From Paenibacillus polymyxa (GTDB taxonomy: Bacteria; Bacillota; Bacilli; Paenibacillales; Paenibacillaceae), in assembly GCF_001719045.1 (NCBI RefSeq), contig NZ_CP015423.1, forward strand, positions 4,463,501-4,527,500: DNA of 64,000 bases, given 5' to 3'. The translations under genes and the position numbers were made by a program. The notes below the pieces were generated by a model that made no database searches, had not been told where the DNA came from, and saw only the letters and a program-made list of their open reading frames with translations. Within the stretch, counting starts at the first letter, position 1, and the number at the start of each line of letters is the position of its first letter. Below are positions 44,872 to 63,277 of the stretch, in pieces.

Positions 44872-45154
44872 GACTTCTTCCGCTCCTTTATCCCATTATT
44901 CCGAGCTTATATTGTACCATAATGCGTCAGGTCCGCGTTGTTGTTGTATATTTTAGCACAGTGTATCCCTTGGTTTTTTTGAAAAAGCAGAGAGACCTGT
45001 CACAAAAAATAGGTCAATTCTGAAATCAATCTGCATAGGTATGTATTACACTTTTTTTAAGGGGATTGCATCATATCCTGAAAGGCGTGACGAGTGTAGC
45101 CATAATCATCAGGAGTGGAGGATAGTCATTACGCAGTCATGGGAGGAACCGAGC

Positions 45155-46021
45155 ATGAATATTTTTGAACGCGTTGCGGAGTACCGGGCGGAAAACAACC
45201 GTCTGGCCTGGAGCGGCACTTTTAGAGAGTATATTGAGATACTCAAGAAAGACCCGACGCCGGCGATGACAGCTCATGCACGGGTTTACAAGATGATTGA
45301 ATCTTTTGGTGTAGAAGAGGTTGGGGGACATAAGCGATACAAATTTTTTGAGCAGGAGATCTTTGGACTGGATCGAGCGCTGGAAAAATTGGTGGAGGAA
45401 TATTTCCATTCCTCAGCCAGGCGGCTCGATGTTCGCAAGCGTATCCTTCTTTTGATGGGACCCGTTAGTGGGGGGAAATCGACACTGGTCACGTTGCTAA
45501 AACGTGGTCTGGAGAAATTTTCAAGAACGGATCAGGGAGCCGTATACGCGATTGAAGGCTGCCCCATGCACGAGGACCCGCTGCATCTGATTCCCCATGA
45601 GCTGCGTCCCGATTTTGAAAAGGAGCTGGGTGTACGGATTGAAGGTAATCTCTGCCCATCCTGCCAGATGAGATTGCGCACGGAATTTGATGGTGATATT
45701 GAAAAGGTCCGCGTGGAGCGGGTATTTATATCGGAAGAAAACCGGATTGGTATTGGTACGTTCAGCCCTTCTGATCCGAAGTCACAGGATATTGCTGATT
45801 TGACGGGCAGCATCGACTTTTCCACGATTACAGAGTATGGTTCGGAATCCGATCCGCGTGCGTATCGGTTTGACGGAGAATTGAACAAAGCGAATCGTGG
45901 ACTGATGGAGTTTCAGGAAATGCTGAAATGCGATGAGAAGTTTTTGTGGAATTTGCTTTCTCTGACCCAAGAGGGAAATTTTAAGGCTGGGCGGTTTGCG
46001 CTCATCAGTGCAGATGAATAG
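45155..46021 (+). CDS. prkA: PrkA serine kinase, 5' fragment cut by prophage
   Basis: 288 residues; complete PrkA has about 631. The AAA+ part is intact up to residue 288: Walker A GPVSGGKST (102-110), GCPMHEDPLHLIPHE, NLCPSCQMRL, GTFSPSDPKSQDIADLTGS, and EFQEMLKCDEKFLWNLLSLTQ. In intact PrkA the text continues ISADE-LIVAHTNE; here it stops right after ISADE because the prophage is inserted. The kinase C-terminal half must lie at the other end of the prophage. Start: ATG at 45155 with GGGAGG 8 nt upstream; the reading from 45041 has no site. PrkA is an AAA+ protein linked to sporulation in Bacillus. No clear promoter was found in 44872-45154. Confidence 0.92.
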   Translation: MNIFERVAEYRAENNRLAWSGTFREYIEILKKDPTPAMTAHARVYKMIESFGVEEVGGHKRYKFFEQEIFGLDRALEKLVEEYFHSSARRLDVRKRILLLMGPVSGGKSTLVTLLKRGLEKFSRTDQGAVYAIEGCPMHEDPLHLIPHELRPDFEKELGVRIEGNLCPSCQMRLRTEFDGDIEKVRVERVFISEENRIGIGTFSPSDPKSQDIADLTGSIDFSTITEYGSESDPRAYRFDGELNKANRGLMEFQEMLKCDEKFLWNLLSLTQEGNFKAGRFALISADE

Positions 46022-46030
46022 GTTATTTAC
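46005..46030. other. Left attachment junction (attL) in prkA
   Basis: prkA homology stops after GCAGATGAA (46010-46018), and the next codon is TAG. The integrase gene ends at 46023 on the other strand. The core of attB must fall within or just before these bases; its exact dinucleotide cannot be read without attR. Confidence 0.7.
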
Positions 46031-47672
46031 TCATAAGACTAAAGAAATCACGCGCAACCAAACCTGGCCTTAAAACTGGGTACAATACATATTTAGCCGG
46101 AATACGGCCCCGACCTCGTTCCGTTAATTCCACAATAACACGATCAAAGACACTTCTCAGTATTTTATTACGATCCGATTTATCTTCTGCTGCTTGGTAC
46201 GCCTCAAGAACAGATGTTAGATTATTTTTTACCACATCAATATCAATTTCATTCTTCTTCTCTGGAAGTTGTCTGTTTGCTTCTTCTTCTAAAATGGCCA
46301 GCTCCTGCAACTCCGAATCAATCTCCGCTTTTCTTTCGTCAAACATTTCATCCGTATACTTACCAGTTTCATATTTTTCGTATATGAATCTCATGCGATT
46401 TTTCAGTTCTTTACTCCGCTGCTCAATGTATGCAGATATGTCTTCTTGGCGGTTGTCCTTTTGTTCTACGGCAATAATTAAATTAAGCTGTTCCTGTAAG
46501 ATGTCCTTATCTAAATTTGAAAAGTGCCGCAAAACTTCTAATAAGTCTTCTTCCACAGACCTGTATTTTATAAATGTGCATCCAGCAGAAGTACACCATA
46601 AAAATTCTTTATGATATTTACTCACAGCTCCAGATTTTGTTTTATAGTTTTGAACGCTATATTGCCGAACCATTCTCCGGCCGCATTTACGACACACACA
46701 TAGGCCAGCAAGTTCACAAGGGGAAAAATCCATCTTGTTACGCGGTTTATGAGCAGAGTCAAGCAATTTCCCCTGAGCTTTTTCCCAAGTGATAGGGTCA
46801 ATGATTGCTGGGAATGCATCCGGCACAATAATATGTTCTTCTTCCGGGCGCTTAACAACTTTTCCATTCACTCTCTGAGTAGTGCGAAATCTCATAGTAC
46901 CTTTATAACGTTCGCTACTTATTAACTGTTGTAGTTGATGTGGATGCCACTCTTTTTTTCCTTTTGGTGTCCGTATCAATGTCTTTTTGCTGATATATGT
47001 AGCCAAAGCCCGGAAACTAACATCACGTCTTGTTCCGTCAGGTTGAGGCACACCATTTACATAATAATCAAATATCATACGTACAATACTAGCTTCATTT
47101 TCATTTATGGTGAGCTTTTTTGTGTCCTTGTTGTAATCGAACCCAAAAGGAGCAGGGCCAGCAACCCAGCGGCCTGCTATCGCATTATTCACCCGGCCCC
47201 CAAAAAGTCTTTCTCTTGTCGTCTCAAATTCTTCACGCGACATGAACAATTCAAAACGTATTTGCCGCAGATCGGAAGGGTTACGAGGATCATATAATTT
47301 GTAAGGGGTAAGAATAAAGATTCTGTTTTCAACTATCAAATCATAGATAACACCCATATCAGTATAAGAGCCACGGCCCATGCGCGAAATCTCTTTAACT
47401 GCAATAGCCTGATATTTTTTTATGCGAAGATCATCTATGACACCTTGAAAAACTGGTCGTGTTGATATTTTGTCGCCGGAACCAACTTCGGGACGCTGGT
47501 CATACGGAATCCCCAAGGGTTCAAGAACTCTATCCATTAATTCTTTTTGGGCTTTTAGAACGTCCTCGCCAGTTCTCCTCTCATGTTCTTCATCGGCACG
47601 AGATTTACGTAGATAGTTTATGATGCTTTCAATTCCTAGACTTAATAAAAAATCTGAGCTTACAGGAGCCAT
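46023..47672 (-). CDS. int: Large serine integrase
   Basis: 549 residues. The N-terminal resolvase domain (residues 1-165) has the catalytic serine as Ser24 in YLRKSRADEE, plus the arginines in RPEVGSGDKISTRP and VKEISRMGRGSY. Then comes the recombinase domain (about 190-290), a zinc ribbon (CVCRKCGRRM, CTSAGC around 340-385) and a coiled-coil C-terminal region. Such enzymes join attP to attB without host factors and need a small directionality factor to excise. The start is the ATG at 47672 (AAAGGAT 8 nt upstream), not the TTG at 47678. It is convergent with prkA, ending 1 bp past its stop. Confidence 0.95.
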   Translation of the reverse strand: MAPVSSDFLLSLGIESIINYLRKSRADEEHERRTGEDVLKAQKELMDRVLEPLGIPYDQRPEVGSGDKISTRPVFQGVIDDLRIKKYQAIAVKEISRMGRGSYTDMGVIYDLIVENRIFILTPYKLYDPRNPSDLRQIRFELFMSREEFETTRERLFGGRVNNAIAGRWVAGPAPFGFDYNKDTKKLTINENEASIVRMIFDYYVNGVPQPDGTRRDVSFRALATYISKKTLIRTPKGKKEWHPHQLQQLISSERYKGTMRFRTTQRVNGKVVKRPEEEHIIVPDAFPAIIDPITWEKAQGKLLDSAHKPRNKMDFSPCELAGLCVCRKCGRRMVRQYSVQNYKTKSGAVSKYHKEFLWCTSAGCTFIKYRSVEEDLLEVLRHFSNLDKDILQEQLNLIIAVEQKDNRQEDISAYIEQRSKELKNRMRFIYEKYETGKYTDEMFDERKAEIDSELQELAILEEEANRQLPEKKNEIDIDVVKNNLTSVLEAYQAAEDKSDRNKILRSVFDRVIVELTERGRGRIPAKYVLYPVLRPGLVARDFFSLMSK

Positions 47673-47881
47673 GTACAAACATCCTTTGGTTTTTATTTTG
47701 GTATGTGTAATGTATTATATCCCAACCAAATAAACAAAAGAACGAAAACTTTAGAATAATAATAGAAAAATGATAGAAGATAGTTATCACACTTTTGATT
47801 TTTGATCTGATATATTTATAACATTGAGACTTGGTGAATAGGAAACTTTTCCTTAGCTTCACCAATCCATAAGCAAGCATG

Positions 47882-47905
47882 AGGGGAACGAAAATTCGTT
47901 CTCCT
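47882..47905 (+). terminator. Hairpin with T-run before the small gene
   Basis: AGGGGAACGAA / TTCGTTCTCCT stem with tiny loop, followed by TTTTTG, 30 bp before a gene start. It may be a terminator/attenuator for the small gene, since nothing to its left is read in this direction. The AT-rich stretch 47688-47881 holds no gene. Confidence 0.55.
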
Positions 47906-47937
47906 TTTTGCTATGCCAAAACAAGGAGGAAAATAGT

Positions 47938-48195
47938 ATGTCTGTAAAACCACGTTTCGCATTTCTCAGCTCTGACGGTATCTTGCATTTGCATGATGAA
48001 GAACATGCAGCTCAACACGGCAAGCACGTACAAACATCCCTGACGGACGACGAAAGCGGATTTCCGGTGATTGAGAGCCAAGGCGTTGTTTACTATGCCT
48101 ACGAGGATAAAGCCTATATCAACGGCAACAAATCGGACGGTAAGCTTATTGCCACGCCGCCAGTGCTCAAGCAGCTTGCAGCAGAGCTATTGTGA
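47938..48195 (+). CDS. Small protein of unknown function next to integrase
   Basis: 85 residues, acidic, soluble, with no membrane segment and no known motif. Contains a repeated His stretch (ILHLHDEEHAAQHGKHV) and ends in PVLKQLAAELL. The ATG at 47938 is 8 nt after AAGGAGG, a very strong site. It is divergent from the integrase gene and convergent with hicB. Because large serine integrases need a small directionality factor and this is the only small gene beside the integrase, it is a candidate; nothing in the sequence proves it. Confidence 0.6.
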   Translation: MSVKPRFAFLSSDGILHLHDEEHAAQHGKHVQTSLTDDESGFPVIESQGVVYYAYEDKAYINGNKSDGKLIATPPVLKQLAAELL

Positions 48196-48216
48196 TAACT
48201 TCCCAGGATGGGATGC

Positions 48217-48245
48217 AGAAAAAGGCGCCCGCAATGGACGCCTTA
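48217..48245. terminator. Terminator between the small gene and hicB
   Basis: AAGGCG / CGCCTT stem with an A5 run on one side, giving a T-run for hicB transcription; shared by two convergent genes. Confidence 0.6.
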
Positions 48246-48268
48246 ATTCATTTTATTTCACTCTTTAG

Positions 48269-48676
48269 TTACTTTTGCTTAATACCCAAAGCATCTTTTA
48301 CAGAAGTCTGAAGTAATTGAGAAAAGTTTAAGCCTGCATCCTTCCCGGCATCACGTAGCCATTGAGGTGCAGTGCAATTGATGGTCACAGATTTATTCAT
48401 TGCTGCATCCCGGTAAGGAGGCAAGAAAACTTCAACGTATACAATCCGGTCACTGGCATCGTTTAACTCAATGCTGGCCGGATCAGACGGTGATGGAATT
48501 GCCATATTATTATCTTCAAGCTCTAGTATACGATCAACTAACATGTTTTTAGCATCAACAACAGCCGTTGGAATATCAGGGGCAAGAACGGCCGTTCCGG
48601 GAATATCCGGGAAGTACAGTCCTATACCATCATCTGCTTTTTCAATGACAGCAGGATAAACATAGGTGTTTTTCAA
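48269..48676 (-). CDS. hicB: HicB-type antitoxin
   Basis: 135 residues. The N-terminal HicB fold (VYPAVIEKADDGIGLYFPDIPGTAVLA) is followed by a C-terminal ribbon-helix-helix-like part (KSVTINCTAPQWLRDAGKDA, then NFSQLLQTSVKDALGI) expected to bind DNA. HicB neutralises HicA and represses the operon. It starts at a TTG (48676) with AAAGGAG 9 nt upstream. It lies 144 bp after hicA on the same strand, a gap carrying two palindromes that look like operators. Confidence 0.82.
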   Translation of the reverse strand: MKNTYVYPAVIEKADDGIGLYFPDIPGTAVLAPDIPTAVVDAKNMLVDRILELEDNNMAIPSPSDPASIELNDASDRIVYVEVFLPPYRDAAMNKSVTINCTAPQWLRDAGKDAGLNFSQLLQTSVKDALGIKQK

Positions 48677-48698
48677 TTTATCTCACTCCTTTTGTTTT

Positions 48699-48750
48699 TG
48701 AGACATATGTCTCAATTAAAGACTAAATTTTTTTGAACCATATGGTTCAA
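48699..48750 (-). promoter_or_regulatory. Pair of CATATG-centred operators in front of hicB
   Basis: Two perfect palindromes: TGAGACATATGTCTCA (48699-48714) and TTGAACCATATGGTTCAA (48733-48750), centres 35 bp apart. On the minus strand TTGAAC at 48750 and TTTAGT at 48727, 17 bp apart, form a possible promoter for hicB, so one palindrome covers its -35 and the other the start point. Likely HicB operators. Confidence 0.6.
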
Positions 48751-48804
48751 TAATTGGGGTGAAAAATTCACCTGCTTATGAGCCTTACTGGAGGTAAGCG
48801 TTTA

Positions 48805-48845
48805 GGGAGAAGCGCAGGGGTTAAAAGATAACCCCTGTTGTCTTC
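48805..48845 (-). other. Long stem-loop over the hicA stop codon
   Basis: A perfect 8-bp stem CAGGGGTT / AACCCCTG (48815-48837) with an outer GAGAAG / CTTCTC pairing covers the hicA stop codon. No T-run follows, so it is not a standard terminator; it could limit read-through to hicB or protect the mRNA. Confidence 0.45.
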
Positions 48846-49036
48846 TCGATGCTCTTGAGTGTACCAATCGGAATGGTGGCTCCTTCATTGTGGAAACTGA
48901 TATCCGCATAGCGTGTTGGATCATCTTTATGTTTCCACCGCTTATGACTACCGCCGCCAGTGTGTGAAGGTGAAGGCCTAAACCCTTCTCTTCTCAACCG
49001 TTTGACTAACTCTCTTACTGTTATTTGTTTCGGCAT
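48821..49036 (-). CDS. hicA: HicA-type mRNA interferase toxin
   Basis: 71 residues, the HicA/YcfA double-stranded RNA-binding-like fold: TVRELVKRLRREGFR, the catalytic His in GGSHKRWKH, and IPIGTLKSIEKTTGV. HicA cuts mRNA and stops growth until HicB binds it. The ATG has AAAGGAGG 7 nt upstream. It is the first gene of the operon, with a near-perfect promoter described below. In this prophage it may act in maintenance or in phage exclusion. Confidence 0.85.
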   Translation of the reverse strand: MPKQITVRELVKRLRREGFRPSPSHTGGGSHKRWKHKDDPTRYADISFHNEGATIPIGTLKSIEKTTGVIF

Positions 49037-49060
49037 CGCTTACCTCCTTTCTATACTCTT

Positions 49061-49089
49061 ATTATAACACGTGTTATCATGCGCGTCAA
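49061..49089 (-). promoter_or_regulatory. hicA promoter with palindromic operator
   Basis: On the minus strand TTGACG (49089-49084), exactly 17 bp, TATAAT (49066-49061). The perfect palindrome ATAACACGTGTTAT (49064-49077) overlaps the -10 and spacer. A repressor bound here would block hicAB. ATGCGC/ATGCGT repeats fill the other side, towards the HNH gene. Confidence 0.7.
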
Positions 49090-49136
49090 TACATTATGCG
49101 CATTATTATGCGTATTAATTTGAAGGAGATAGAAGC

Positions 49137-49466
49137 ATGACCAACCCATTCTATAAATCAAAACGTTGGAAGCGAAAGCGCGCTGCTATCCTGCGGCGTG
49201 ATAAATACATGTGCCAAGAAAGCAAAAGGTTTGGAAAATCTGAATCGGCTGTCACGGTACATCACATCTATCCGCTGGAGCATTATCCAGAGCTTGCGCT
49301 AAAGGATTGGAACTTAGTATCACTATCGGACAAGCAACATAACGCGATGCATGATAGGCAATCGCATGAGCTTACAGAGTTGGGCAAAGCATGGCAGGCA
49401 AGGGTAAGGGAACACTTCGATAGAGAGCAAGGAAATGAATTTTCTCTAAGCGAACTGAGCGAATAA
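49137..49466 (+). CDS. HNH endonuclease, packaging-associated
   Basis: 109 residues. The HNH motif (CQESK... TVHHIYPLEHYPELALKDWNLVSLSDKQHNAMHD) is complete. HNH proteins directly before the terminase genes help cut the cos site in HK97-like phages, so this is a packaging partner rather than a free homing nuclease. The start has GAAGGAG 10 nt upstream. Divergent from hicA. Confidence 0.9.
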   Translation: MTNPFYKSKRWKRKRAAILRRDKYMCQESKRFGKSESAVTVHHIYPLEHYPELALKDWNLVSLSDKQHNAMHDRQSHELTELGKAWQARVREHFDREQGNEFSLSELSE

Positions 49467-49629
49467 ATTTGAAATTATTTTTTGAAAAAATATTTTTTAG
49501 AAAGCCCCCCCTTTTTATTTTTAAAAAAATTTTATCTGGGGACCGGGCAGGGGAGCCTTTTCCAATAGAGCGGGGTCCCAAAAACTTTTTTCGGCCTAAA
49601 AATATACAGTAAATGGGAGGTGAAGGCAT
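49467..49629 (+). other. Possible cos region
   Basis: This 163-bp gap between HNH and terminase small subunit, where cos sites of related phages lie, contains a C7 run and GC-rich GGGGACCGGGCAGGGGAGCC (49538-49557), with GGGACC/GGTCCC in inverted order. The exact ends cannot be called from sequence. Confidence 0.35.
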
Positions 49630-49980
49630 GTGGCGAAGTCACCAACAAAGGAGACGATCAAGCGGGCAACTGTGGCGGATATGAAAGCACTTGGTATTCA
49701 TAAACCGCAGTACAATAGGATAATTGACATTTACGCGGAACTGGTTTTTCAGTACAACACGCTGACCAAAGAGTTCGAAGAAGGTGGTTACCAGTATGAG
49801 GTAAGTACCGATCAGGGAGGCGCAAAAAAAAGCCCAATTCTTGCATCTCTTGAAACGTTGCGTAAGGACATTTTGGCATACTCCGACCGCCTCTGTCTGA
49901 ATCCGAAGTCCCTTGAGACTGTGACGGTTGAAACGAAAGGGAAATCCGCTCTTGCGGCTGCATTAAGTGAGCTTTCATGA
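49630..49980 (+). CDS. terS: Phage terminase small subunit (P27 type)
   Basis: 116 residues. The helix-turn-helix-containing P27 fold is indicated by [20 protein letters not shown], then a long helix and [23 protein letters not shown]. It binds the packaging start site and recruits the large subunit. It starts at a GTG with GGGAGGTG 7 nt upstream and overlaps the large subunit by 4 bp. Confidence 0.85.
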
Positions 49981-51704
49981 ACAAATTTAAGAATTATGAT
50001 TTGGTTATGGAGTATGCCAACAGTATCATTGAGGGTAGAAAGATTGCGGGGAAAGAGATTGTCCAGGGCTGTGAACGATTCATGCGCGATCTGGAAAACC
50101 CGGAATACACATTTGACCCTAAAGACGCTGAATTTGTCATTGGGATCATAGAAAAAACGTTCGTTCATGATGTGGGGGAACGATTAGACGGCACTCCATT
50201 AAGTGGGGAGCCTTTTTTATTAGAACCGTGGCAAAAGTTTATCATTTACAATCTGCTGGGGTTCTATCATAGGGGCAGCATCCTGCGAAGGTACAAAGAA
50301 GCCTTTATTTTCATTCCTCGTAAAAACGGAAAGACGCGGTTTGTGGCTGCATTGTCTTGGGCACTGGCATTACTGAATCGACGTTCCGGTTCAAAGATTT
50401 ACATTGTCGGCGCTGCGCTTGAGCAGTCGTTACAAAGTTTCAATTTTATCAATTACAACCTAGACAAAATGGGCGAAAAAGAAAATTTCCGCGTTCTGGA
50501 CAATAACCAAGAGCATAGCATAAGCGGCGATTTAGGCGATGGTACTCTGTACATTAAGGCATTAGCCGCTAACCCGGATAAGCAGGATTCTTTAATTTGT
50601 AATATCGCCATTGCTGACGAGCTACACGCTTACACCAAGCCGAAGCAATATAACATCATCAAAGAAGCCATGAAGCCGTATTCCAACAAGTTAATGATCG
50701 GTATTACCACTGCTGGCGATAACATGACAACCTTCTGTTATCAGCGTTTGCAGCTTTGCAAAAAGATACTGGATCAGACGGTACAGGATGAGACATATTT
50801 TGTGTTTATTGCTAAGGCGGACGAAGACCCGGATACAGGTGAGGTTGATTACACTGACCCGGTGCAACATGAAAAAGCGAATCCGAATTATGGCATAACC
50901 ATTCGTCCAGACGACATCCTTAATGATGCTCTGCAAGCCCAAAATGATCCACAGCAACGTAAAGACTTCTTTTCCAAGTCATTGAACGTGTACACCGCCG
51001 CAATGCGGGCTTACTTCAATTTGGACGAATTTAAAGCGTCTGACCGTAAATATAAATGGACACTTGAGGAATTGGCGAAGCTTCCTATTGACTGGTATGG
51101 CGGGGCTGATTTGTCTAAGCTGCATGACCTGACAGCATCGGCACTGTATGGTAGCTATGGGGAAATAGATATTGTGGTTTCACATGCTTGGTTCCCTGTG
51201 GTAGCCGCAGCCAAGAAAGCGGAGGAAGACAACATTCCGCTATTCGGCTGGAAGGAAGATGGCTGGCTGGATATGTGCAATAGTCCTGTAGTCAATTACG
51301 CAGATATTGTGAACTGGTTTGTCAAAATGAAGAAGATGGGCTTCAAGATTAAACAGGTGGGTTTTGACCGGAAATTCAGTCGAGAGTTTTATTTGAACAT
51401 GAAGCGGTCTGGTTTTTCCATGATTGACGAGCCTCAATATTTCTGGCGTAAATCTCAGGGGTTCAGACGTATTGAACAAAAAACGAAGGAAGGAAAATTT
51501 TATTACCTTCATTCGCAGGCATATGAATATTGTGTGCAGAACGTTAGCGCCATAGAAAAGACGGATGACATGATTCAATACGAAAAGGTGAACCCTCAGC
51601 AGCGCATAGATATATTCGATGCGTCTGTTTTTGCATGTGTAAGGAAGCTTGAAAATATGGAGAAGTCCACAAGCGCGGCAAAATGGCTTAATGGAGGTGG
51701 GTGA
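49977..51704 (+). CDS. terL: Phage terminase large subunit
   Basis: 575 residues: ATPase domain with Walker A-like PRKNGKTRF near residue 113, Walker B-like [10 protein letters not shown] near 212, then a nuclease domain with acid residues ([13 protein letters not shown] near 375 and [13 protein letters not shown] near the end). It powers DNA entry into the head and cuts the concatemer. The length and spacing of the motifs fit the HK97/Terminase_1 class. The gene is translationally coupled to terS (ATGA overlap) and runs 1 bp into the portal start region. Confidence 0.94.
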
Positions 51705-51705
51705 T

Positions 51706-52908
51706 TTGGGGCTTAGAGATTGGATGCGTAAGAAACGTGACACACGGGCTGCACCGGAAAACAGTATTGGTTATTTCCTGACACAAGACGCGTACGACAC
51801 ATTGTGTGTACCTGGTTATACAAGGCTGTCCGATAATCCTGAAGTGAAGATGGCTGTTCATAAGATTGCTGACTTGATCAGCAGCATGACAATTCACCTG
51901 ATGCAGAACACGAGTGACGGGGATATTCGCGTTAAGAATGAGCTTTCTCGCAAGCTGGACGTTAATCCTTACAGCCTCATGACGCGTAAGGCATGGATAT
52001 ACAACATCGTTCAAAACCTATTGCTTTCGGGCGAGGGGAATAGTGTAGTATATCCCAAAATATCAAATGGTTTGATAGTCGATTTAATCCCACTCAAACC
52101 GTCCAGCGTCAGCTTTATGGAGACATTGGACGCATATCAAATTTTGTATAAAGGAAATACCTATCAGCATGATGAGGTACTTCACTTTATCATAAACCCC
52201 GATCCTGAACGGCCGTGGAAAGGGCAGGGGTACCGGACTGTACTCAAGGATATTATTCATAATCTCAAGCAGGCTACGGCGACCAAGAAGGGGTTTATGT
52301 CCGGTAAGTATATGCCCTCACTCATTATTAAGGTTGACGCGAATACGGCGGAACTGAGCAGCGAGGAGGGCCGTGAAAAGGTATTTGATATGTACTTGAA
52401 ACGGTCTGAGGCAGGGCAACCATGGATCATTCCAGCAGAAATGATTGACGTGGAGCAGGTCAAGCCCCTGAGCCTGAACGATTTGGCAATAAACGATTCG
52501 GTACAACTGGATAAACGGACAGTGGCGGGCATCTTCGGAGTGCCGGCTTTTTTTGTTGGCGTGGGTGACTTCCGGAAGGATGAATATAACAGCTTCATCA
52601 ATACGACGATTCTGCCGATGGCTACCGGACTTGTCCAAGAATTGACCCGCAAGCTGCTTTACAGCCCGGATTTATATTTCAAGTTTAATCCCCGTAGCCT
52701 TTACGCTTATGACCTCAAAGAGCTGGCAGATGTCGGAAGTAATCTTTTTGTTCGCAGCCTCATGCTGGGGAACGAGGTCCGGGACTGGATCGGTTTATCG
52801 CCGCTTGAAGGATTGAACGAACGCATCATTTTAGAAAATTATATCCCTGCTGGAATGATTGGTGATCAGAAAAAGTTAAACCAGGGGGGAGGTGAGGATG
52901 ATGGATAG
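51706..52908 (+). CDS. Phage portal protein (HK97 family)
   Basis: 400 residues. It has the marks of the Phage_portal family ([55 protein letters not shown]). It forms the dodecameric ring through which DNA passes. The start is a TTG at 51706, 6 nt after GGAGGTG; the ATG at 51691 would put that site inside. It overlaps the protease gene by 8 bp. Confidence 0.92.
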
Positions 52909-53473
52909 AAGCCAGAAGGTTGTACGCAGCCTGCACACGGAGTTAAAGACCCGATCTGAACAGGATGGACAGGACATGTTCATTGAAGGCTATTTTGCTG
53001 TGTTCAATCGTCAAACGGAGCTGTGGCCCGGAGCATTTGAAGAATTGGCCCCTGAAGCTTTTAATACCACGCTGGGGAACGATGTACGGGCGCTCATTAA
53101 CCATGACACAACGCTGGTACTTGGTAGGAATAAATCTGGCACACTGGAGCTTAAAGCCGATTCTCATGGCCTGTGGGGGCGTGTGAAGGTGAATCCGAAC
53201 GATAGTGACGCAGTGAACATGTACGAGCGCGTCAAGCGCGGAGACGTGGACCAGTGTTCCTTTGGCTTCAACATTTTGAAAGAGGACACGGATTGGCGAG
53301 ACGATGGAACTGTTAAATGGACCATTCGAGAAGTTGACCTTCACGAAGTTTCCGTTTGCACCTTCCCCGCTTATTCAGATACGGGAGTACAAGCGCGAAA
53401 ATCTGAGGTTGAGCAGCACCGGGAGCGACAGCTCCAGCAACGAAAACACCAATTGAAAGCGAGGCTGAAATAA
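52901..53473 (+). CDS. HK97-family prohead protease
   Basis: 190 residues. The catalytic His in [14 protein letters not shown] and Ser in DQCSFGFNI match the HK97 prohead protease (S78) family; [18 protein letters not shown] is also typical. It cleaves the scaffold part of the capsid protein. ATG at 52901 (or 52898) follows GGGGGAGG by about 8 nt. Confidence 0.92.
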
Positions 53474-53475
53474 TA

Positions 53476-54786
53476 ATGGCACTTAGACAAATTATGCTGG
53501 CAAAAAAGATTCAGCAGCGTAAGGCTGCTCTTGAAGAACTACTGGGGCAAGAACGCAGCTTGCAAACGAGATCCGATGAGTTGGAATCCGCAATTGAGGA
53601 AGCCGCCACCGACGAAGAAATTGCAGCTGTAGAAGAAAGTGTTACGGAGCTGGAGCAGGAGAAGACGGGGATTACTGAGCAGAAAGGCGTATTGGAAGGC
53701 GAGATTGCAGCACTTGAAGGCGAATTGGAACAACTCAACAGCCAAGCGCCTGATAATACCCCGAACCCTTTACCAACTCCAGCACCATCCGAAAGAAACC
53801 ATACACAAACAGGAGGCGAAACAAGAATGAGAGGCAACAAATACGAGACACGGGCGCAAACACTTGAAAGATTGAACCAACCGGAGGTACGTGATTTTTA
53901 TTCCGCACTGGCTACGGCTGTGAAAGAAAATCGCGCACTCACTGGAGCAGATGCAACGATTCCTACCGTTGTTATTGACATGATCCGCACGCGCATTGGT
54001 GATTTTAGCCGCCTTTACAAAGAGGTTGAAGTCGTTCCGTTGAATGGTGATGCACGTGTTATTTTGGACGGTGCGATTCCTGAAGCAATTTGGGTTGAAA
54101 TGTGTGACCCGGTTCAAGAGCTGGCAGATGCCTTCACACAAACCGAACTGGATGGCTTTAAAGTGGGCGGCTTTATTCCTCTGTGCAACGCCATTTTAGA
54201 GGACAGCATGATTGATTTGGCGAATTTTGTCGAACGTCGTTTAGCGATGGCTATCGGTAAAGCTTTGGACAAGGCTATTTTGATCGGTGCAGGCCCGACA
54301 GCAAAACAGCCGCTTGGTGTGGTTACAGCTTTGGCATCTGAGGCTGACCGAAACGTTGAGGTTGACGGTTCCATAGAAAGCATCGTTACCAAAATGGCTT
54401 TGATTGATGATGGAGAAGATGGCGCACCGATTGAGGAAGTTATTGCCGTTATGCGCCGTTCCACTTATTACAAGCACATTGTGCCGCAAACTCTTGTGAA
54501 AACGGCGGACGGTAGAGTGGTTGTCCAAACTGTCACCAATCCAATGTTGCCCGATGGCACACGTATTGTCTGGTCACAATATGCGCCTGCTGACACGATC
54601 ATCCTGGGTGACTTCAAAAAGTACCTTTTGGCGGAACGTGCAGGCGTCAAAATTGAAAGCTCGAAGGAAGTCCGTTTCATTCAGGATCAAACTGTTTTCA
54701 AGGGAACGGGGAGATACGATGGTAAACCAGTTTACACAGAGTATTTTGCTGTTATCAAAATTACAGTGGGGGGTGCTCAGGGATGA
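53476..54786 (+). CDS. Major capsid protein (HK97 fold)
   Basis: 436 residues. The first 115 residues are a Glu/Gln-rich coiled coil plus a Pro-rich linker (the scaffold delta domain, cleaved by the protease); the HK97 fold follows, with WVEMCDPVQELADAF, VERRLAMAIGKALDKAILIG, PLGVVTALA and YAPADTIILGDFKKYLL. It follows the protease by 2 bp. Overlaps the next gene by 4 bp. Confidence 0.93.
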   Translation: MALRQIMLAKKIQQRKAALEELLGQERSLQTRSDELESAIEEAATDEEIAAVEESVTELEQEKTGITEQKGVLEGEIAALEGELEQLNSQAPDNTPNPLPTPAPSERNHTQTGGETRMRGNKYETRAQTLERLNQPEVRDFYSALATAVKENRALTGADATIPTVVIDMIRTRIGDFSRLYKEVEVVPLNGDARVILDGAIPEAIWVEMCDPVQELADAFTQTELDGFKVGGFIPLCNAILEDSMIDLANFVERRLAMAIGKALDKAILIGAGPTAKQPLGVVTALASEADRNVEVDGSIESIVTKMALIDDGEDGAPIEEVIAVMRRSTYYKHIVPQTLVKTADGRVVVQTVTNPMLPDGTRIVWSQYAPADTIILGDFKKYLLAERAGVKIESSKEVRFIQDQTVFKGTGRYDGKPVYTEYFAVIKITVGGAQG

Positions 54787-55340
54787 GCAAGTTTACAGCG
54801 GTAGTAACTGAGGATGTGGCAGCAAACCGACTCCTATCTAAAACGGTAGGAGCTGAAGGTATCACGCTGGCGGCAACTACAGCAGGCGGTACTCCAGACT
54901 TCCGCTCCACAGGGAGACTGAAAAAGGACGAGGAAATCACCGTGACCATTAACAACAGTCCATCCTGGTTGGTGGAAGCTGGTGAGGATATCACGGCAGG
55001 TGCAACGGTGGCAGCCGGGGCGGGTGGCGTGGTTGTAGCGTCAGCAACTGGATTCGGATACATCGTTAAGGCGGTTAAGGCTGGCGAATTGGCTTCCGTG
55101 ATTCGGTCTACTACCGGAGGGGGCGCAGGGCAACCAGGGCCAAAGGGTGACAAAGGAGCAACAGGCCCAGCGGGACCAACCGGGCCAGCAGGACCAAAGG
55201 GCGATAAAGGCGATACTGGGGCAACGGGCGCAGCCGGGGCAAAAGGTGACAAGGGCGATAAAGGCGATCCGGGCGAGGTCACAAAGGCCCAGTATGACGC
55301 TCTAGCGGCCCGCGTAACGGCTCTAGAAGGCGCGGGTTAA
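54783..55340 (+). CDS. Capsid decoration/head-fibre protein with collagen-like stalk
   Basis: 185 residues. The N-terminal 110 residues form a beta-rich, Gly/Ala/Thr-rich domain like phage capsid cement/decoration proteins (DUF2190-like). Then come 17 Gly-X-Y triplets (residues 116-166, GPKGDKGATGPAGPTGP...), a collagen-like region, and a short C-terminal helix (KAQYDALAARVTALEGAG) that looks like a trimeric coiled-coil register. Collagen stretches need trimers, so decoration trimers may carry triple-helix fibres on the head. It follows the capsid gene with a 4-bp overlap. Confidence 0.82.
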   Translation: MSKFTAVVTEDVAANRLLSKTVGAEGITLAATTAGGTPDFRSTGRLKKDEEITVTINNSPSWLVEAGEDITAGATVAAGAGGVVVASATGFGYIVKAVKAGELASVIRSTTGGGAGQPGPKGDKGATGPAGPTGPAGPKGDKGDTGATGAAGAKGDKGDKGDPGEVTKAQYDALAARVTALEGAG

Positions 55341-55341
55341 T

Positions 55342-55617
55342 ATGGACTCCATCGCTATTGTCGAACTTGTAAAAGAACGGCTGGGCATTCGTACAACTGT
55401 GCGTGACACCTATCTGGAGGCTATTGCAAAATCAGTCATTACCGAATTGGAAGATGAAAAAGGGCTTGCGCTTGATGCAGAGAACTTCAATCATCTTCTT
55501 TTTTGTGCTGATTATGCTACATGGCGGTATCAGTCCCGGGATGAATCCGGGGCTATGCCGCGTCATCTCCAATTCAGATTACACAATCTAATTCTTCATA
55601 ACCGGAGGTTACCATGA
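55342..55617 (+). CDS. Head-tail connector (gp6-like)
   Basis: 91 residues, helical; VELVKERLGIRTTVRDTYLEAIAKSVITELE fits the HK97 gp6-like DNA-packaging/adaptor family, which sits under the portal. The gene overlaps the next by 4 bp and stands in the standard position. Confidence 0.78.
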   Translation: MDSIAIVELVKERLGIRTTVRDTYLEAIAKSVITELEDEKGLALDAENFNHLLFCADYATWRYQSRDESGAMPRHLQFRLHNLILHNRRLP

Positions 55618-55925
55618 GTTGGGATTATGAGCTTACGCTAATCAGGCCCGGTGAAATTATACAGGACGATATAGGCAATCAGATTCCCGGCGATCCAGTA
55701 GAGACGGTCGTATTGTGTAAACTCCAATCTGTGGGACGTACTGAGTTTTACAATGCAGCGGTTGCAGGGCTACGGCCTGAAATGGTGTTTGTTATTCATG
55801 GCTATGAGTACAACTATGAACAGTCTGTCCGTTTTGATGGCGTACTGTACAGGGTGATTCGTACCTATGCAACCGGATTTGAAGAATTGGAATTGACTTG
55901 TGAGAGGGTGGCGGCAGATGGCTAG
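55614..55925 (+). CDS. Head closure protein (SPP1 gp16-like)
   Basis: 103 residues, mainly beta. LTLIRPGEIIQDDIGNQIPG and KLQSVGRTEFYNAA fit phage head-closure/stopper proteins. It overlaps the next gene by 8 bp. Assigned by position as much as by motif. Confidence 0.75.
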   Translation: MSWDYELTLIRPGEIIQDDIGNQIPGDPVETVVLCKLQSVGRTEFYNAAVAGLRPEMVFVIHGYEYNYEQSVRFDGVLYRVIRTYATGFEELELTCERVAADG

Positions 55926-56304
55926 TGACATTGAGATTGATCAGCTTGTTTCCGAAATCACCCGCGCCGTACAGGAATACACCCATGATGTGGAAAAGGG
56001 AATTGACCAGCATTTGGACGAAGTAGCCGAAAAGGTACGACAGGAAGCGGAGACAAGCGCACCTAAGCATACCGGGAAGTACGCCAAGGGGTTCAAAGTA
56101 TCGGACCAAAGCAAAGGCACACTAAAACGGCTGGTGGTCTGGAATAAAAAGCATTCCCGCCGTGTGCATTTGCTGGAGTTTGGACACGCCAAGCGCGGAG
56201 GTGGACGGGTAAGGGCTTATCCTCACTTACGGCCTGCTTATGAACACCACGCGGCACATCTTGCGGATGATATCAAGCGCATCATTCGTAACGGAGGTAG
56301 GTAA
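55918..56304 (+). CDS. Tail-component protein (HK97 gp10-like)
   Basis: 128 residues. The family mark APKHTGKYAKGFKV, followed by LLEFGHAKRGGGRVRAYPHLRPAYE, is typical of HK97 gp10-like tail completion proteins. It starts at the ATG at 55918 with GAGAGGGTGG before it. Confidence 0.85.
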   Translation: MASDIEIDQLVSEITRAVQEYTHDVEKGIDQHLDEVAEKVRQEAETSAPKHTGKYAKGFKVSDQSKGTLKRLVVWNKKHSRRVHLLEFGHAKRGGGRVRAYPHLRPAYEHHAAHLADDIKRIIRNGGR

Positions 56305-56639
56305 TGGAACAATCGGATTTGGTTGTTGAACTTAAGTCATTGGGTATGCCAGTTGCTTATAGTCATTTCACAGGGACAGCGCAAAAACCAGCCCCGCCTC
56401 CACCGTTCATAACGTATCAGTTTGCGTACAATTCTGACATGATAGCAGATAATCAAAATTATGTAGATATTGGGAACTATCAGGTGGAGTTGTACACTGC
56501 TAAGAAGGATCTGGCAGCCGAAAAGAAAGTCCAAGACAAGTTAAAGGAATTGAACTTGCCCTATAGCAAGGTAGAAAGCTGGCTGGATGATGAAAAACTG
56601 TATCAGATTTTATATGAAATTCAACTTATAGGAGCGTGA
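56304..56639 (+). CDS. Tail terminator/completion protein
   Basis: 111 residues, alpha/beta. YSHFTGTAQKPAPPPPFITYQFAYNSDM and YQVELYTAKKDLAAEKKV resemble the tail-terminator/completion proteins (gp17-like) found before the tail tube gene. ATG overlaps the previous stop by 1 bp. Confidence 0.72.
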   Translation: MEQSDLVVELKSLGMPVAYSHFTGTAQKPAPPPPFITYQFAYNSDMIADNQNYVDIGNYQVELYTAKKDLAAEKKVQDKLKELNLPYSKVESWLDDEKLYQILYEIQLIGA

Positions 56640-56643
56640 CGAA

Positions 56644-57246
56644 ATGGATAAAAACAAAGTTACATTTGGTTTAAATAAGGTGCATATCGCGTTTTACGAT
56701 GAGGACAGTACAACGCAACCCGCTTGGGGTACACCTATCCCTATTCCAGGTGCGGTACGCTGGACACCGGAGGCGCAGGGGGAACAGTCGGAGTTTTACG
56801 CCGATAATACTAAGTATTACGTAGCGACTTCGAACAATGGCTATACAGGTGAATTGGAATTAGCACTGGTTCCCGATGATATTCTGGCCAGAATGCTTGG
56901 GTGGATCATTGACGAAAACGGAATGTTGGTGGAAGTGTCGGATGCAACGCCTAAAAAGTTTGCGCTGCTTGGACAGGTACAGGGCGATCAGAAGAACCGC
57001 CGCTTTGTTTATTACGATTGCCAAGCTGACCGACCGGCTAAGGAACGCCAAACGAAAGGTGAATCCGTCGAAGTTGCAACCGATGTATTGAACCTGACAG
57101 TTTCCCCGATTGAGCTTGGTGGGCGCACAGTTGTTAAAGGTGACCTGGAGCTAAATGAAACAAATGCTGCTGCTTATAGCGCGTTTTTTGATTCTGTGTA
57201 TACGCCTAAATTCACAAATGTAACTACAGGGGGAGCAGAAGCATGA
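56644..57246 (+). CDS. Major tail protein
   Basis: 200 residues; VTFGLNKVHIAFYDED at the start, GAVRWTPEAQGEQSEFYADNTKYY and LALVPDDILARMLGW fit the phi13-like major tail tube family. It makes the tail tube. A 4-bp overlap joins it to the chaperone gene. Confidence 0.88.
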   Translation: MDKNKVTFGLNKVHIAFYDEDSTTQPAWGTPIPIPGAVRWTPEAQGEQSEFYADNTKYYVATSNNGYTGELELALVPDDILARMLGWIIDENGMLVEVSDATPKKFALLGQVQGDQKNRRFVYYDCQADRPAKERQTKGESVEVATDVLNLTVSPIELGGRTVVKGDLELNETNAAAYSAFFDSVYTPKFTNVTTGGAEA

Positions 57247-57632
57247 GAGATTTAACCATTGGTAGTCAACAAATTCGAGTCAAGGCGGGTGCCTTGGCTC
57301 TTTTATTTTATAAGCAGGAATTTAAGTCGGATTTGCTGGGCGATATGTTGAAAATGGTGGGCGGTAATGTGGGGGGAGGACCAAACGTTGAAATTGATCC
57401 AAGCTCTATTGATTTTCTTGCCAACTTGCAAATGGTCTGGGCTATGGCTAAATCAGCCGAATACCCAAAACCATATGACGGGTTTTCGACATGGCTTGCC
57501 GCTTTAGATGATGATCTGGATTTTTCGGATACTACATTCTTTGTCGGGGCATTGGAGGAAGCCACGGAAGGCTTTTTTCGTCAGCAGTCCAAGTCCAGCG
57601 GGATCAAAGGCGGCGTCCCAGCCAACCAATAA
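57243..57632 (+). CDS. Tail assembly chaperone, G frame
   Basis: 129 residues. The layout (between tail tube and tape measure), the start MRDLTIGSQQIRVKAGALALLFYK and the helix-rich middle fit the G part of the G/GT chaperone pair that folds tape-measure protein into the tail. A second frame opens in the overlap and continues to 57813; see the frameshift entries. Confidence 0.85.
   Translation: MRDLTIGSQQIRVKAGALALLFYKQEFKSDLLGDMLKMVGGNVGGGPNVEIDPSSIDFLANLQMVWAMAKSAEYPKPYDGFSTWLAALDDDLDFSDTTFFVGALEEATEGFFRQQSKSSGIKGGVPANQ
57573..57579 (+). other. Candidate +1 frameshift site in the tail chaperone gene
   Basis: TTTTTTC (57573-57579) in the G frame reads TTT-TTT-CGT. A +1 slip of the tRNA-Phe from TTT to TTC leads directly into the T frame (GTC-AGC-AGT). 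-2 on the T6 run is an alternative; -1 leads to a stop after about 24 codons and no T-like product. The shift is inferred. Confidence 0.55.
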
Positions 57633-57813
57633 CACACATCTTGAAATGGACCTGTTAGCTATTGGTAAACGGATCGGCCTGAGCTTTGCAGAGATTAATG
57701 ACCTGAGATGTCAGGAACTTATAGATTTAGCCCGTAGCTTCACGGGGAGCGACAACAAAGAGGAATCCAAAGAGGCGACACAGGATGATATAGACGCGTT
57801 CTACGGCAGATAA
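57574..57813 (+). CDS. Tail assembly chaperone, T extension (frameshift product)
   Basis: About 80 residues in the frame shifted by +1 relative to G. It contains a small helical domain (MDLLAIGKRIGLSFAEIND, ELIDLARSFTGS) ending in TQDDIDAFYGR, which matches the usual end of phage T proteins. No ribosome site stands before the ATG at 57508 or the one at 57647, so the product is most likely made as a GT fusion by frameshifting. Confidence 0.7.
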   Translation, partial: FFVSSPSPAGSKAASQPTNNTHLEMDLLAIGKRIGLSFAEINDLRCQELIDLARSFTGSDNKEESKEATQDDIDAFYGR

Positions 57814-57830
57814 GAGGGGAGGTGTAGATT

Positions 57831-60800
57831 TTGGCTGAAACGATCAAGGGTATTAATGTCGTAATCGGAGCAGAGACAAAAGGGCTATCGGCTGCTTTAT
57901 CAGATGTGAATAAACGAAGCAAGGATTTACAAGGTGAGTTAAAACAGATTGATAAGCTGCTTAAATTTGACCCAGGTAACACGGAATTGCTTGCTCAAAA
58001 GCAGAAGATTTTGACAGATGCCATTTCCAATACTTCAGACAAGCTTCAAACCCTAAAAGCAGCGCAGCAGCAAGTAGCTGACCAATTCGCGCGTGGCGAT
58101 ATCACAGAAGGTCAGTACCGTGCTTTTCAAAGAGAGCTTGTCCAGACTGAACAGGAATTGAAAAGGCTGCAAAACAGCCTGAACAGTTTGAACGTGCCGA
58201 CAATTAACGTTGTCATTAATGGAGACACCAAGGATTTATACGCATCATTGGACGGTGTTAACAAGCGTAGTAAAGAGCTACAAACAGAACTGCGGCAAGT
58301 GGACCAGCTTTTGAAATTTGATCCTGGGAACACCGAACTTTTAGCCCAAAAACAAAAGCTTCTATCCGATGCCATTTCCAATACATCCGATAAGCTGAAC
58401 ACGCTTCGCAGCGCTCAACAGCAGGTCACAGAGCAGTTTCAGCGTGGGGATATATCGGAAGAACAGTATCGAGCTTTTCAACGTGAGCTGGTCCGTACAG
58501 AACAGGAACTACAACGTTTTGAAAACGGCTTACGTGAAGCCCGTGGTGAACTGGACGATTTAAGCGATGAAGCAGGCGATGCAGGAAACAAGATAGGGGA
58601 AGTCGGGGAAAAGTTCAAGGCGGCAGGCGATAAAATTAAAGGTGTCGGCGTAGGACTTACGGCGGGTGTTACTGCGCCGCTTGTGGCTATCGGTGCGGTA
58701 GCTGGGAAAACGGCGATGGATCTGGACGCAGCAGCAGGGAAAATGGAAGCTTCCCTGGGGATCACGGCAGAGGAAGCGGAAAAGCTGGCTGTCGCAGCTC
58801 AGGGTATCTGGAAGAACGGATTCGGGGAAAGCCTTGGTGAAGTTAATCAAGCTCTTATTACCACTAAAACAAATATCCGAGGTTTGGACGATTCAACACT
58901 GACCGACTTAACCCAAAAAGCAATGATTTTGAAAGAAACATTTGATGCAGAAGTGAATGAAACAACCCGTACCGCTTCCGTGCTGATGAAGAACTTCAAA
59001 ATTTCTGGATCGGATGCTATGGACCTTATCACTGTAGGTTTTCAGCGCGGGGGTAACTTCTCAGATGAATTGCTGGATACCTTACGGGAATATTCGCCAC
59101 AGTTCAAAGGCTTAGGCTACAGTGCCGAACAGTTCACCGCTATCCTGATTGCAGGCGCTGAAAAAGGCGCGTTTAATCTGGACAAAATTGGGGACAGCGC
59201 TAAAGAAGCGTTCCTGAGAGTAGGAGACGGAAGTAAAAGCTCACGTGATGCCCTAACCTCTTTAGGACTGGATTTTAAGAAGGTAGAGAATGACATAAAC
59301 GCTGGTGGGCAAGGTGCGCAGAGGGCTTTTGGTGCGGTTGTCACAGCCATTGCGGGCGTGAAGGACCCAGCCAAACAAGCACAAACAGCGGTAGCCCTCA
59401 TGGGTACACCGTTGGAGGACTTGGGGCCACAGTTCCGTGATTTTTTCGCTACGGTTAATACTGACCTAGGGAATTTTAAGGGATCAACGGATAAAGCAGG
59501 AGCTGCACTTAAAGATAACTTAGGTGACCGCTTCAATATCTTAATCCGTAACTTACAAAGTAGTCTGGCCCCACTGGGCGAAACACTGGTAAGCCTAGCC
59601 GAAAAAGCTCTGCCGCCGATCACACAGGCCGTGGATACCCTTGCGACTGCGTTTTCGTCTATGTCTCCATCTATGCAAATGGTTGTGCTTGCTATAGCGG
59701 GTATTTTAGCAGCCATTGGCCCGCTGGTTGTAATCTTCGGCACCATTATATCTTCTATAGGTACGATCATCACAGCCTTTAGCGCGGTATCTGGAGCCTT
59801 TGCCGCTTTTGGTCCGGTTGTTGCTGCACTGACCGGACCTATAGGCATTACAATAGCAGCCATAACCGCTTTAGTGGCGGGTCTGACCTATCTATACAAC
59901 AACAATGAAACGGTGCGTAATGGGCTTAATGCCGCTTGGGAGGCTATCAAGGCGGCGGCTATGGCTATCTTTGGAGCGATTAAAGATTTTTGGGACCAAT
60001 GGGGCGGTCAAATTACCGAACTGTTTCAAAGTATGTGGGATCTGGTCAAGTCTGTATTTGACACTGTTATTAACGCTATTGCTGATGTAGTCAAGTCTGT
60101 GTTTGATAGTATTAAAGCTTTTTGGGATAAGTGGGGCAAAGATATTACCACGTTCTTCAAAGCGTATCTGGAAGGCTTAAAGCTTCTCTATGGCACTATT
60201 TTTTCAGCGATCTTTGAAGCAATTAAATTTATATTCAATGAGATTAAAGCCTTTTGGGATAAATGGGGCAGCACCATCGTTGAAGCCTTTAAAGGAATTT
60301 TCACGATCCTGAATACCATCTTTGGTGCAACCTTCACGGCTATTTTTGTAGTGATAAAAACCATCTTTACACAAATTAAAGCTTTTTGGGATACATGGGG
60401 AGCCACGATTACAACGCTATTCAAAACCGTTTTCGCAGTGGTCAAAACGGTCTTTGAGGGTGCATGGAATACCATCAAAATCGTGGTGGAAACTGTCATC
60501 GGGGTTATCTCTGGCATTATCAAAACATGGCTGGCTGTTTTTAAAGGTGACTGGGCCGGAGCATGGGAAAATGCAAAGTCAGTTGTTACGACAATCTGGA
60601 ACGGCATCAAAGCTTTGTTCAAAAATGCATTCCAGACGATGGTTAAAATAGGTAAGGATATTATCCAGGGTTTAATCAACGGTATTGCAAATATGAAAGA
60701 TGCTGTTATGAAGAAGACCAAGGAAATATCTGAGGGCATGGCTGAGCAAATAAAAAGATTTTTCGGTATTCATTCACCATCCCGATTAACTACAGAATAC

Positions 60801-62282: not shown

Positions 62283-62845
62283 TTGATGAAATGATATGGC
62301 TTGGTGGGAAGTCCAATGTAGAATTGGGCTTTATTGTGCTGAGCACGTCCAAACGTCCAGGGTTGCCAAATACGGTAGACCGGACGTTATCTATTCCGGG
62401 GCGTAACGGGTTGTGGAATTATGGAGCCGATCATGAGGCCAGGAACTTCAACTATGAATGTGCTTTTATCACAAAAGATTATATGGAGCTGCAACAGCGT
62501 GTCATGACCTTAGCTGCACATTTGGTGGACAGCTACGGCAAGCCGAGAGAGTTAGAGCTAAAGCAGCGTGAGCGTCCGGGACAGGCGTTTGTGGTTCAAT
62601 ACGCAGGTAGTTTTGACGTAGAACGAATTATGGGCGTAGGAAAATTTTCCTTGCCTTTGATTGCCTTTGATCCTTTTGCCTCTGGGCAGGAGCGTATCTA
62701 TGAAACCATAATCACAAAATCACCTGAGAATGTACAGATATACTCGGGCGGTAATATCCGTGCTTATCCATATATCGTACTTACTAACATTGGCACCACC
62801 ACTTTGCGTAGCTTCAGAATTGCTAATGAATATCAAGTAGAATAG
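62279..62845 (+). CDS. Distal tail protein (Dit-like), short
   Basis: 188 residues; ELGFIVLSTSKRPGLPNTVDRTLSIPGRNGLWNYG and FNYECAFITKDYMELQQRVMTLAAHL are typical of the N-terminal part of Dit/phage-tail family proteins (Pfam Sipho_tail). It lacks the usual second half of about 60 residues. It starts at a TTG overlapping the tape measure stop by 4 bp. Forms the hub at the tail tip. Confidence 0.75.
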   Translation: MIDEMIWLGGKSNVELGFIVLSTSKRPGLPNTVDRTLSIPGRNGLWNYGADHEARNFNYECAFITKDYMELQQRVMTLAAHLVDSYGKPRELELKQRERPGQAFVVQYAGSFDVERIMGVGKFSLPLIAFDPFASGQERIYETIITKSPENVQIYSGGNIRAYPYIVLTNIGTTTLRSFRIANEYQVE

Positions 62846-62857
62846 GAGGTCTTTATA

Positions 62858-63268: not shown

Positions 63269-63277
63269 GTGTGAAGC

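Follow-up and report, generated by a model that had tools for sequence, protein, structure and literature searches.

Interrupted prkA gene in the Paenibacillus polymyxa genome

The prkA gene of Paenibacillus polymyxa was found to be split by a prophage. The window, i.e., the whole stretch of DNA analysed (64,000 nucleotides), covers positions 4463501-4527500 of a genome that consists of one complete contig of 5,756,938 bases (G000:C1). The gene starts at window position 45155 on the forward strand, and its frame is open through codon 288, the last one of the ISADE sequence, which ends at 46018. A TAG codon follows directly at 46019-46021. The original prediction, made from the letters of this DNA, placed the cut at codon 288, described the frame as intact up to the junction and put a serine integrase 1 bp from the truncated end. 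All of this agrees with our reading: the frame is open over 45155-46018, and the recombinase gene of the opposite strand ends with its stop at 46023, which leaves the single base 46022 in between. It was also proposed that the other half of prkA would lie at the right end of the prophage in the same orientation. This half was found beyond the window, at G000:C1:4543903-4544919 on the forward strand, and it matches positions 273-356 of the AAA_PrkA family and the PrkA C-terminal family over its full 255 positions. The features located in the window are as follows (att, attachment; aa, amino acids).

45155-46018, + strand: 5′ half of prkA, codons 1-288 (AAA_PrkA positions 2-275 of 358, E 2.2e-96)
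46016-46017, + strand: GA crossover dinucleotide in attL, the bases always common to both junctions of prkA elements; the attR partner is at 4543909-4543910, outside the window
46018-46050, + strand: right-hand phage arm at the att site, one of the two arms that together form an imperfect inverted repeat around GA (19 of 30 positions agree between them; shuffled mean 11.9, p 0.002)
46018-64000, no strand: part of the 34,393-bp prophage inside the window (its left 17,983 bp), identified from both junctions and from phage families; the remainder extends to genome position 4543910
46023-47678, − strand: SprA-like large serine recombinase, 551 aa (Pfam Resolvase and Recombinase)
49630-62845, + strand: packaging, head and tail genes, i.e., small and large terminase, portal, head protease, major head protein, major tail protein, tape measure and Dit (PHROGs)

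The left and right junctions of the P. polymyxa element have ATGAA in common. Comparison with relatives narrowed the crossover to GA, at window positions 46016-46017 and genome positions 4543909-4543910, and the element measured from GA to GA is 34,393 bp, of which 46018-64000 lies in the window. Hence, the last base of codon 288 belongs to the phage side. The cut had been expected between codon 288 and the LIVAH sequence; the place of the split stands, and the crossover itself is moved inside codon 288. When the two halves were joined computationally at GA, a 631-aa PrkA with no internal stops was obtained, as expected if precise excision rebuilds the frame. The intact PrkA of relatives has the same length in 36 of the 38 genes examined. 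The split of prkA and its computed repair are firm.

The possibility of a second intact prkA elsewhere in the genome was checked with both PrkA families. The search of the whole genome with the C-terminal family gave a single match, and the one with AAA_PrkA returned the two halves and one match below the cut-off, within a 796-aa frame. Since only the two halves exceeded the cut-off and the C-terminal family occurs once, no second prkA is seen in this complete genome, and this candidate was rejected.

The content of the insert was assessed by scanning 20 proteins, picked from the longer frames of the element, against PHROGs. Besides the packaging, head and tail proteins given above, the matches comprised an HNH endonuclease, a minor head protein, a holin, an endolysin, a metalloprotease, an anti-repressor, a DnaD-like loader, a DnaB-like helicase and a transcriptional activator. 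The PHROGs matches of two small regulator-like frames were mostly unnamed. By its gene content, the insert looks like a complete siphovirus-like prophage.

The recombination unit and its attachment site

The 551-aa recombinase was compared with 50,697 phage records. Within the best 15 of 204 matches, the top ones are SPbeta relatives (YokA/SprA), with 41-42% identity over 95-97% of the length, and the next among the matches listed reaches 29%. The profile search of the PDB pointed to the same family, with the SprA (YokA) and SprA-SprB entries 9dxh and 9dxd at E ~1e-149. Serine 26, presumably the catalytic residue, is invariant in 14 of 14 aligned sequences. The third codon of the gene is an ATG at 47672, which is an alternative start and the end point used in the earlier note. 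That note had likened the element to skin in sigK and SPbeta in spsM, which also use serine recombinases; the recombinase proved to be of the SprA (SPbeta) kind, which strengthens the analogy with spsM. Upstream of the gene, at window positions 47697-47730, there is an inverted repeat, TTTGGTATGTG...CCCAACCAAA, which overlaps a TATAAT-like box and, by eye, resembles the att arms. Self-regulation of the recombinase through this repeat is possible.

In the recombinase tree, SprA is nested among the other sequences, and prkA-linked members stand on either side of it. As the tree is rooted at the midpoint and the SprA branch is long, prkA as the ancestral target of the family is a possibility. A contig labelled Pseudoxanthomonas sp. 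J31 (L029) also carries a Paenibacillus-type recombinase (70%) together with the small gene described below; the label is probably wrong or the contig a contaminant.

At the other end of the element, about 90 bp before the right crossover, a gene for a 70-aa protein is located on the forward strand (genome 4543606-4543818; L005:16106-16318). It is shared, along with the recombinase, by phages whose bodies otherwise align little. In a scan of 30 records, many of which do not reach the far end of the element, homologues were found in nine elements (that of P. polymyxa included), close to an att site or immediately ahead of the recombinase. The protein was compared with SprB, the directionality factor of SPbeta. 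The local scores of four comparisons were reached by 4, 0, 1 and 4 of 1000 shuffles, and hhalign gave a P of 2.6e-4 and a probability of 42%. The AlphaFold model is of moderate quality (predicted local distance difference test, pLDDT, 78; predicted template modelling score, pTM, 0.34). When 350,542 PDB chains were searched with it by Foldseek, the two best matches were small chains of 9dxd, a structure of a serine integrase with its recombination directionality factor (E 0.25 and 0.35; template modelling score 0.33-0.42). The protein had no family match in Pfam or PHROGs, the PDB profile search did not find SprB with it, and its tblastn search in phages gave nothing useful. Taken together, its place, sequence and fold, each of weak to moderate weight, make the 70-aa protein a probable directionality factor.

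Serine recombinases use a 2-bp overlap. In the prkA elements with both junctions read, the bases always common to left and right are GA, within the Glu codon of ISADE|LIVAHTNE. Around this GA, the two phage arms make up an imperfect inverted repeat in 12 of 12 elements, with 15-22 of 30 positions matching (shuffled means 10.9-12.7; p <=0.022). In P. agilis (G256, L075), the element is reversed, and both the recombinase and the small gene lie beside the 3′ half of prkA. The arm beside its recombinase, read from the recombinase side, looks by eye like the usual one with TC as its core. The core dinucleotide alone sets the orientation of such insertions, and the TC core of a reversed element fits this rule. 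Over 36 intact genes, the surroundings of the att site show no unusual conservation, the 50-nt segment there ranking 814 of 1846. A precise, reversible interruption of prkA of the SPbeta type is well supported.

Recurrence of prkA elements in spore-forming bacteria

Genomes of relatives were searched for the recombinase and for split prkA genes. In the genus set, 71 of 75 genomes have an undivided prkA, in line with the original prediction for prophage-free relatives, and four have a split one. The recombinase (E <= 1e-60) was detected in exactly these four, so the association is not due to chance. The family set comprised 394 genomes (E <= 1e-90), 12 of which contain a recombinase of the SprA-like type. 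Eight of them carry it at a split prkA (G000, G019, G059, G062, G159, G256, G257 and G279). Candidates for splits were chosen by the best E among the matches listed, and eight genomes were re-examined. Three candidates (G142, G197, G218) were rejected, as their prkA pieces are adjacent with no insertion between them, and so was G245, which has a full prkA and a second partial match. In G257 (L079-L081), there is a second break near AAA_PrkA positions 114-128, at contig ends, which is either a second insertion or an assembly gap.

In the GTDB set, 24 recombinase loci were inspected. A prkA piece adjoins the recombinase in 11 of them; the rest are phage-phage junctions, contig ends and unnamed targets. 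Five genomes (P. ottowii MS2379, P. terrae NRRL B-30644, P. terrae PIC167, P. agilis N4 and P. sp. 598K) had already been counted in the family, and six are additional: P. ginsengihumi, P. tyrfis, P. albiflavus, P. sp. J31TS4, Terribacillus aidingensis and Desulfofundulus thermosubterraneus. The even, class-wide sample consisted of 398 genomes (E <= 1e-100). Here, the recombinase occurs in 19 genomes at 21 loci, eight of which adjoin prkA (P. polymyxa and seven more), and the target could not be named at six (G523, G547, G558, G761 and both loci of G625). In total, 21 distinct genomes (8 + 6 + 7), one of a Desulfotomaculum-type clostridium and the others of Bacilli, possess the SprA-type recombinase at prkA split at the same codon. 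The least certain is Desulfofundulus, where the halves are on different contigs and the recombinase is 107 bp from the 3′ half. Desulfocucumis palustris, in which a similar phage arm precedes the 3′ half of prkA, was left out of the 21.

Draft genomes in which the two halves lie on separate contigs (G059, G062, P. ginsengihumi, P. albiflavus, Desulfofundulus) could suggest that unrelated contigs were joined by the assembler within prkA. However, the P. polymyxa genome is one contig, and the halves and the recombinase share one contig, at the same codon, in G159, G256, G279, G500, G534, G566, G630, G665 and G681. The assembly artefact was therefore rejected, and the probability we leave to it is negligible.

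Joining at GA was tried over the set of prkA elements. An unbroken 631-aa PrkA was obtained in 7 of 7 cases tried, and a matching length (631 or 632 aa) and frame in 12 of 14 further ones. The two failures were Desulfofundulus, whose 5′ half missed the text pattern, and Desulfocucumis, whose 5′ half was not found and whose 3′ half is short. It thus worked in 19 of the 20 genomes for which it was attempted (the 21 less G257, with its further break).

The elements of the class-wide sample differ greatly in size: about 34 kb (G499), 31 kb (G630), 18.4 kb (G534), 6.2 kb (G681), 4.6 kb (G665), 3.9 kb (G566) and 2.2 kb (G500). No phage genes were recognised among the frames listed and the proteins scanned of the four smallest. 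In the 2.2-kb element (L159:1905-4117), which is in reverse orientation with the recombinase beside the 3′ half, the recombinase is the only sizeable gene. It is accompanied by an M29 peptidase and a Dabb protein in the 3.9-kb element and by two TauE proteins in the 4.6-kb one. The 6.2-kb element (L162:1938-8104) contains the SprA-type recombinase and a GerA-type germinant-receptor operon (PF03323, PF25198/PF05504, PF03845). The prkA halves of all four can still be joined. A recombinase and clean halves kept in the absence of a phage is what selection for reconstitution would be expected to leave; the small elements may also be recent insertions. For the 3′ halves of four split genes, each compared with its nearest intact relative, the ratio of nonsynonymous to synonymous substitution rates (dN/dS) was 0.000, 0.014, 0.013 and 0.016, compared with 0.000-0.032 for intact genes; dS was saturated for three more distant split genes. 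We did not take these low values as evidence because the insertions cannot be dated.

The recombinase family was also observed at other genes. In G286 and G294, its members adjoin the two halves of a gene that we take, from its sequence, to be gerE-like; the G294 piece matches PF00196. In G465 and G551, they adjoin a polysaccharide-synthesis gene (PF02719), presumably spsM-like. G661 (L142, L157) has two SprA-type recombinases, one by a ClpP-like gene and the other by the C-terminal part of spoIVB. HtrA-like protease genes adjoin the recombinase in G483 and, by sequence likeness, in G494 and G662. The neighbour is a GDP-mannose dehydratase-like gene in G264 and a major facilitator superfamily (MFS) transporter gene in G366.

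Proposed excision, its timing and the role of prkA elements

A sporulation role of prkA is known from B. subtilis and B. anthracis and is carried over to Paenibacillus by analogy. The B. subtilis gene is reported to depend on sigma-E, and its deletion lowers sporulation (PMC4415436); a prkA mutant of B. anthracis has severe sporulation defects (PMC13001217). Excision during sporulation has been described for elements in sigK, spsM, spoVFB, spoVR, gerE and yabG (PMC4191935, PMC5595907, PMC6957869, PMC10747680). The split prkA shares three properties of such intervening elements: both halves have one orientation, computed removal of the insert restores the frame, and the insert brings its own site-specific recombinase.

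Based on these data, we propose the following mechanism. A temperate siphovirus-like phage would integrate site-specifically in prkA by means of an SPbeta-type recombination unit, which is made up of the SprA-like recombinase beside attL and the SprB-like directionality factor beside attR. While the phage is integrated, PrkA would end at residue 288. Once the directionality factor is made, the recombinase would join attL and attR across GA, the phage would leave as a circle, and prkA would be rebuilt with no scar. This would occur both upon lytic induction and, in sporulating cells, in the mother cell, where prkA would be used. Loss of the phage from the mother cell would not be inherited, because, as we propose, the spore keeps the lysogenic chromosome.

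The split, the att sites, the recombinase family, the precise join, the recurrence at one codon and the small elements free of recognised phage genes could be read directly from the genomes; excision in the P. polymyxa strain is what we infer from them. Traces of recombination are present in relatives. In P. ottowii (G019, L015-L018), two 38-kb copies lie in tandem in prkA on one contig. They differ at a single position of the length compared, and a phage-phage att junction separates them. The contig is named in the NODE_ style and reads like a short-read assembly. A phage-phage junction occurs in P. terrae PIC167 (G062) too. These are either excised circles unrolled by the assembler or tandem lysogens; the junctions show recombination in these relatives and have no bearing on its timing.

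The SPbeta-type unit, the recurrent target and the remnants that keep the recombinase make a sporulation-time switch, by which the phage leaves in the mother cell too, the best explanation, and we regard it as reasonably probable. Mother-cell excision of the P. polymyxa prophage is likewise inferred. Several observations weigh against the switch. No sigma-E or sigma-K consensus beyond shuffles was found before the small gene (nine elements) or four recombinases (smallest p 0.17), in a scan so weak that the SPbeta sprB control itself had p ~0.10, and no such promoter was found before the recombinase of the 2.2-kb element. The figures for the 70-aa protein are all weak (hhalign 42%, Foldseek E 0.25, model pTM 0.34). 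In 4 of the 12 family-set genomes (G264, G286, G294, G366), the recombinase is elsewhere and prkA is in one piece, and some targets, such as the MFS transporter and HtrA-like genes, are not recognised as sporulation genes. The prkA of G257 carries a further break besides the element. In G665 (L161, L169), a second intact prkA (G665:C1:1405028-1406071) accompanies the split one, so reconstitution is not indispensable everywhere. The complete-looking prophage could be a recent insertion; it is absent from 71 of the 75 genus genomes. Finally, an early B. subtilis study, as told in PMC4415436, observed no phenotype when prkA was deleted, and PrkA may therefore be dispensable in part.

Much of this fits ordinary lysogeny, the main rival, according to which prkA is a conserved landing site, excision takes place on lytic induction only, and the broken gene is largely dispensable. 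The complete-looking phage, the negative promoter scan, the second prkA of G665, the early deletion report and the low occurrence in the genus (4 of 75) all speak for it. On the other hand, phage release does not explain why small elements with no recognised phage genes keep an open recombinase and joinable halves, and the family also adjoins gerE-like, spsM-like and spoIVB genes. We consider this explanation possible but rather unlikely. In another version, excision at sporulation serves the phage or element, which leaves or stays according to the state of the host, and the restored prkA is a by-product. The complete look of the phage agrees with this, as does the cargo of small elements possibly useful to spores, e.g., the GerA-type operon of G681. 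The 2.2-kb element of G500, which contains just the recombinase, is not explained in this way, and we judge the by-product version improbable.

A stretch before prkA at window positions 45012-45051 is strongly conserved: in 22 of 45 upstream regions, which were aligned, it reads GGTCAA...GCATAGGTATGTAATACAC or close variants, with GGTCAA...GCATAGGTATGTA[AT]TACAC as the pattern, and a dyad, GTATGTAATAC, is present in part of the 22. No clean sigma-E promoter was recognised in these 22 aligned regions. G665, with its split and intact copies, is a natural test of the importance of reconstitution.

Among the closest known systems is SPbeta in spsM of B. subtilis (PMC4191935). The recombinases belong to the same family (41-42%), the prophage lies inside a gene, and a precise join is possible. 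SPbeta has yokA and sprB (yotN) at opposite ends, the former on the reverse and the latter on the forward strand, and the P. polymyxa element has the same layout and strands. The two differ in target (spsM vs. prkA) and size (134,416 bp in NC_001884 vs. 34,393 bp). A sporulation promoter before sprB was demonstrated for SPbeta (PMC4191935), whereas none was found in the prkA elements. The genus Spbetavirus has a size of about 134 kb, which the 34,393-bp phage does not reach; the likeness is that of the recombination unit only. The small prkA elements resemble gin in gerE of B. cereus ATCC10987, a serine-recombinase element free of phage genes in a sporulation gene (PMC5595907). Some relatives of the prkA-element recombinase are themselves in a gerE-like gene. 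In contrast, gin has three recombinase genes and its excision was shown (PMC5595907); the likeness is one of description. The elements skin in sigK (B. subtilis, C. difficile) and yin in yabG (C. botulinum) also combine a sporulation gene, a serine recombinase and a small directionality factor (PMC6957869, PMC10747680). Their recombinases and targets are different, and their excision was measured, whereas the prkA element is known from its sequence. The Listeria comK prophage (active lysogeny) is a reversible switch of the interrupted gene as well (PMC4191935), but comK is not a sporulation gene, and excision from prkA is proposed for a mother cell that dies.

In the open PMC literature, at the level of titles and the beginnings of abstracts, we found no report of a prkA interrupted by an element; neither subscription papers, a 2013 study on B. 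weihenstephanensis among them, nor the supplementary files of recombinase surveys fall within this scope, so priority is not established.

With respect to the family, prkA may be a major and old landing site of SprA-type recombinases, from Bacilli to Desulfotomaculum-type Clostridia. Phages would have landed there repeatedly, and some would have decayed to minimal elements, with the recombinase alone or with a germinant-receptor operon, kept because mother-cell excision rebuilds PrkA. We put forward such a repeatedly domesticated developmental switch tentatively and give it a little less than an even chance. The one-codon prkA elements of 21 genomes and two classes span the range between whole prophages and a remnant with just the recombinase, and they offer natural replicates for studying the evolution from phage to switch. 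They are also a source of SprA-family recombinases whose attachment sites are defined, and the P. polymyxa strain with its complete genome is a place to test the role of PrkA in Paenibacillus sporulation.

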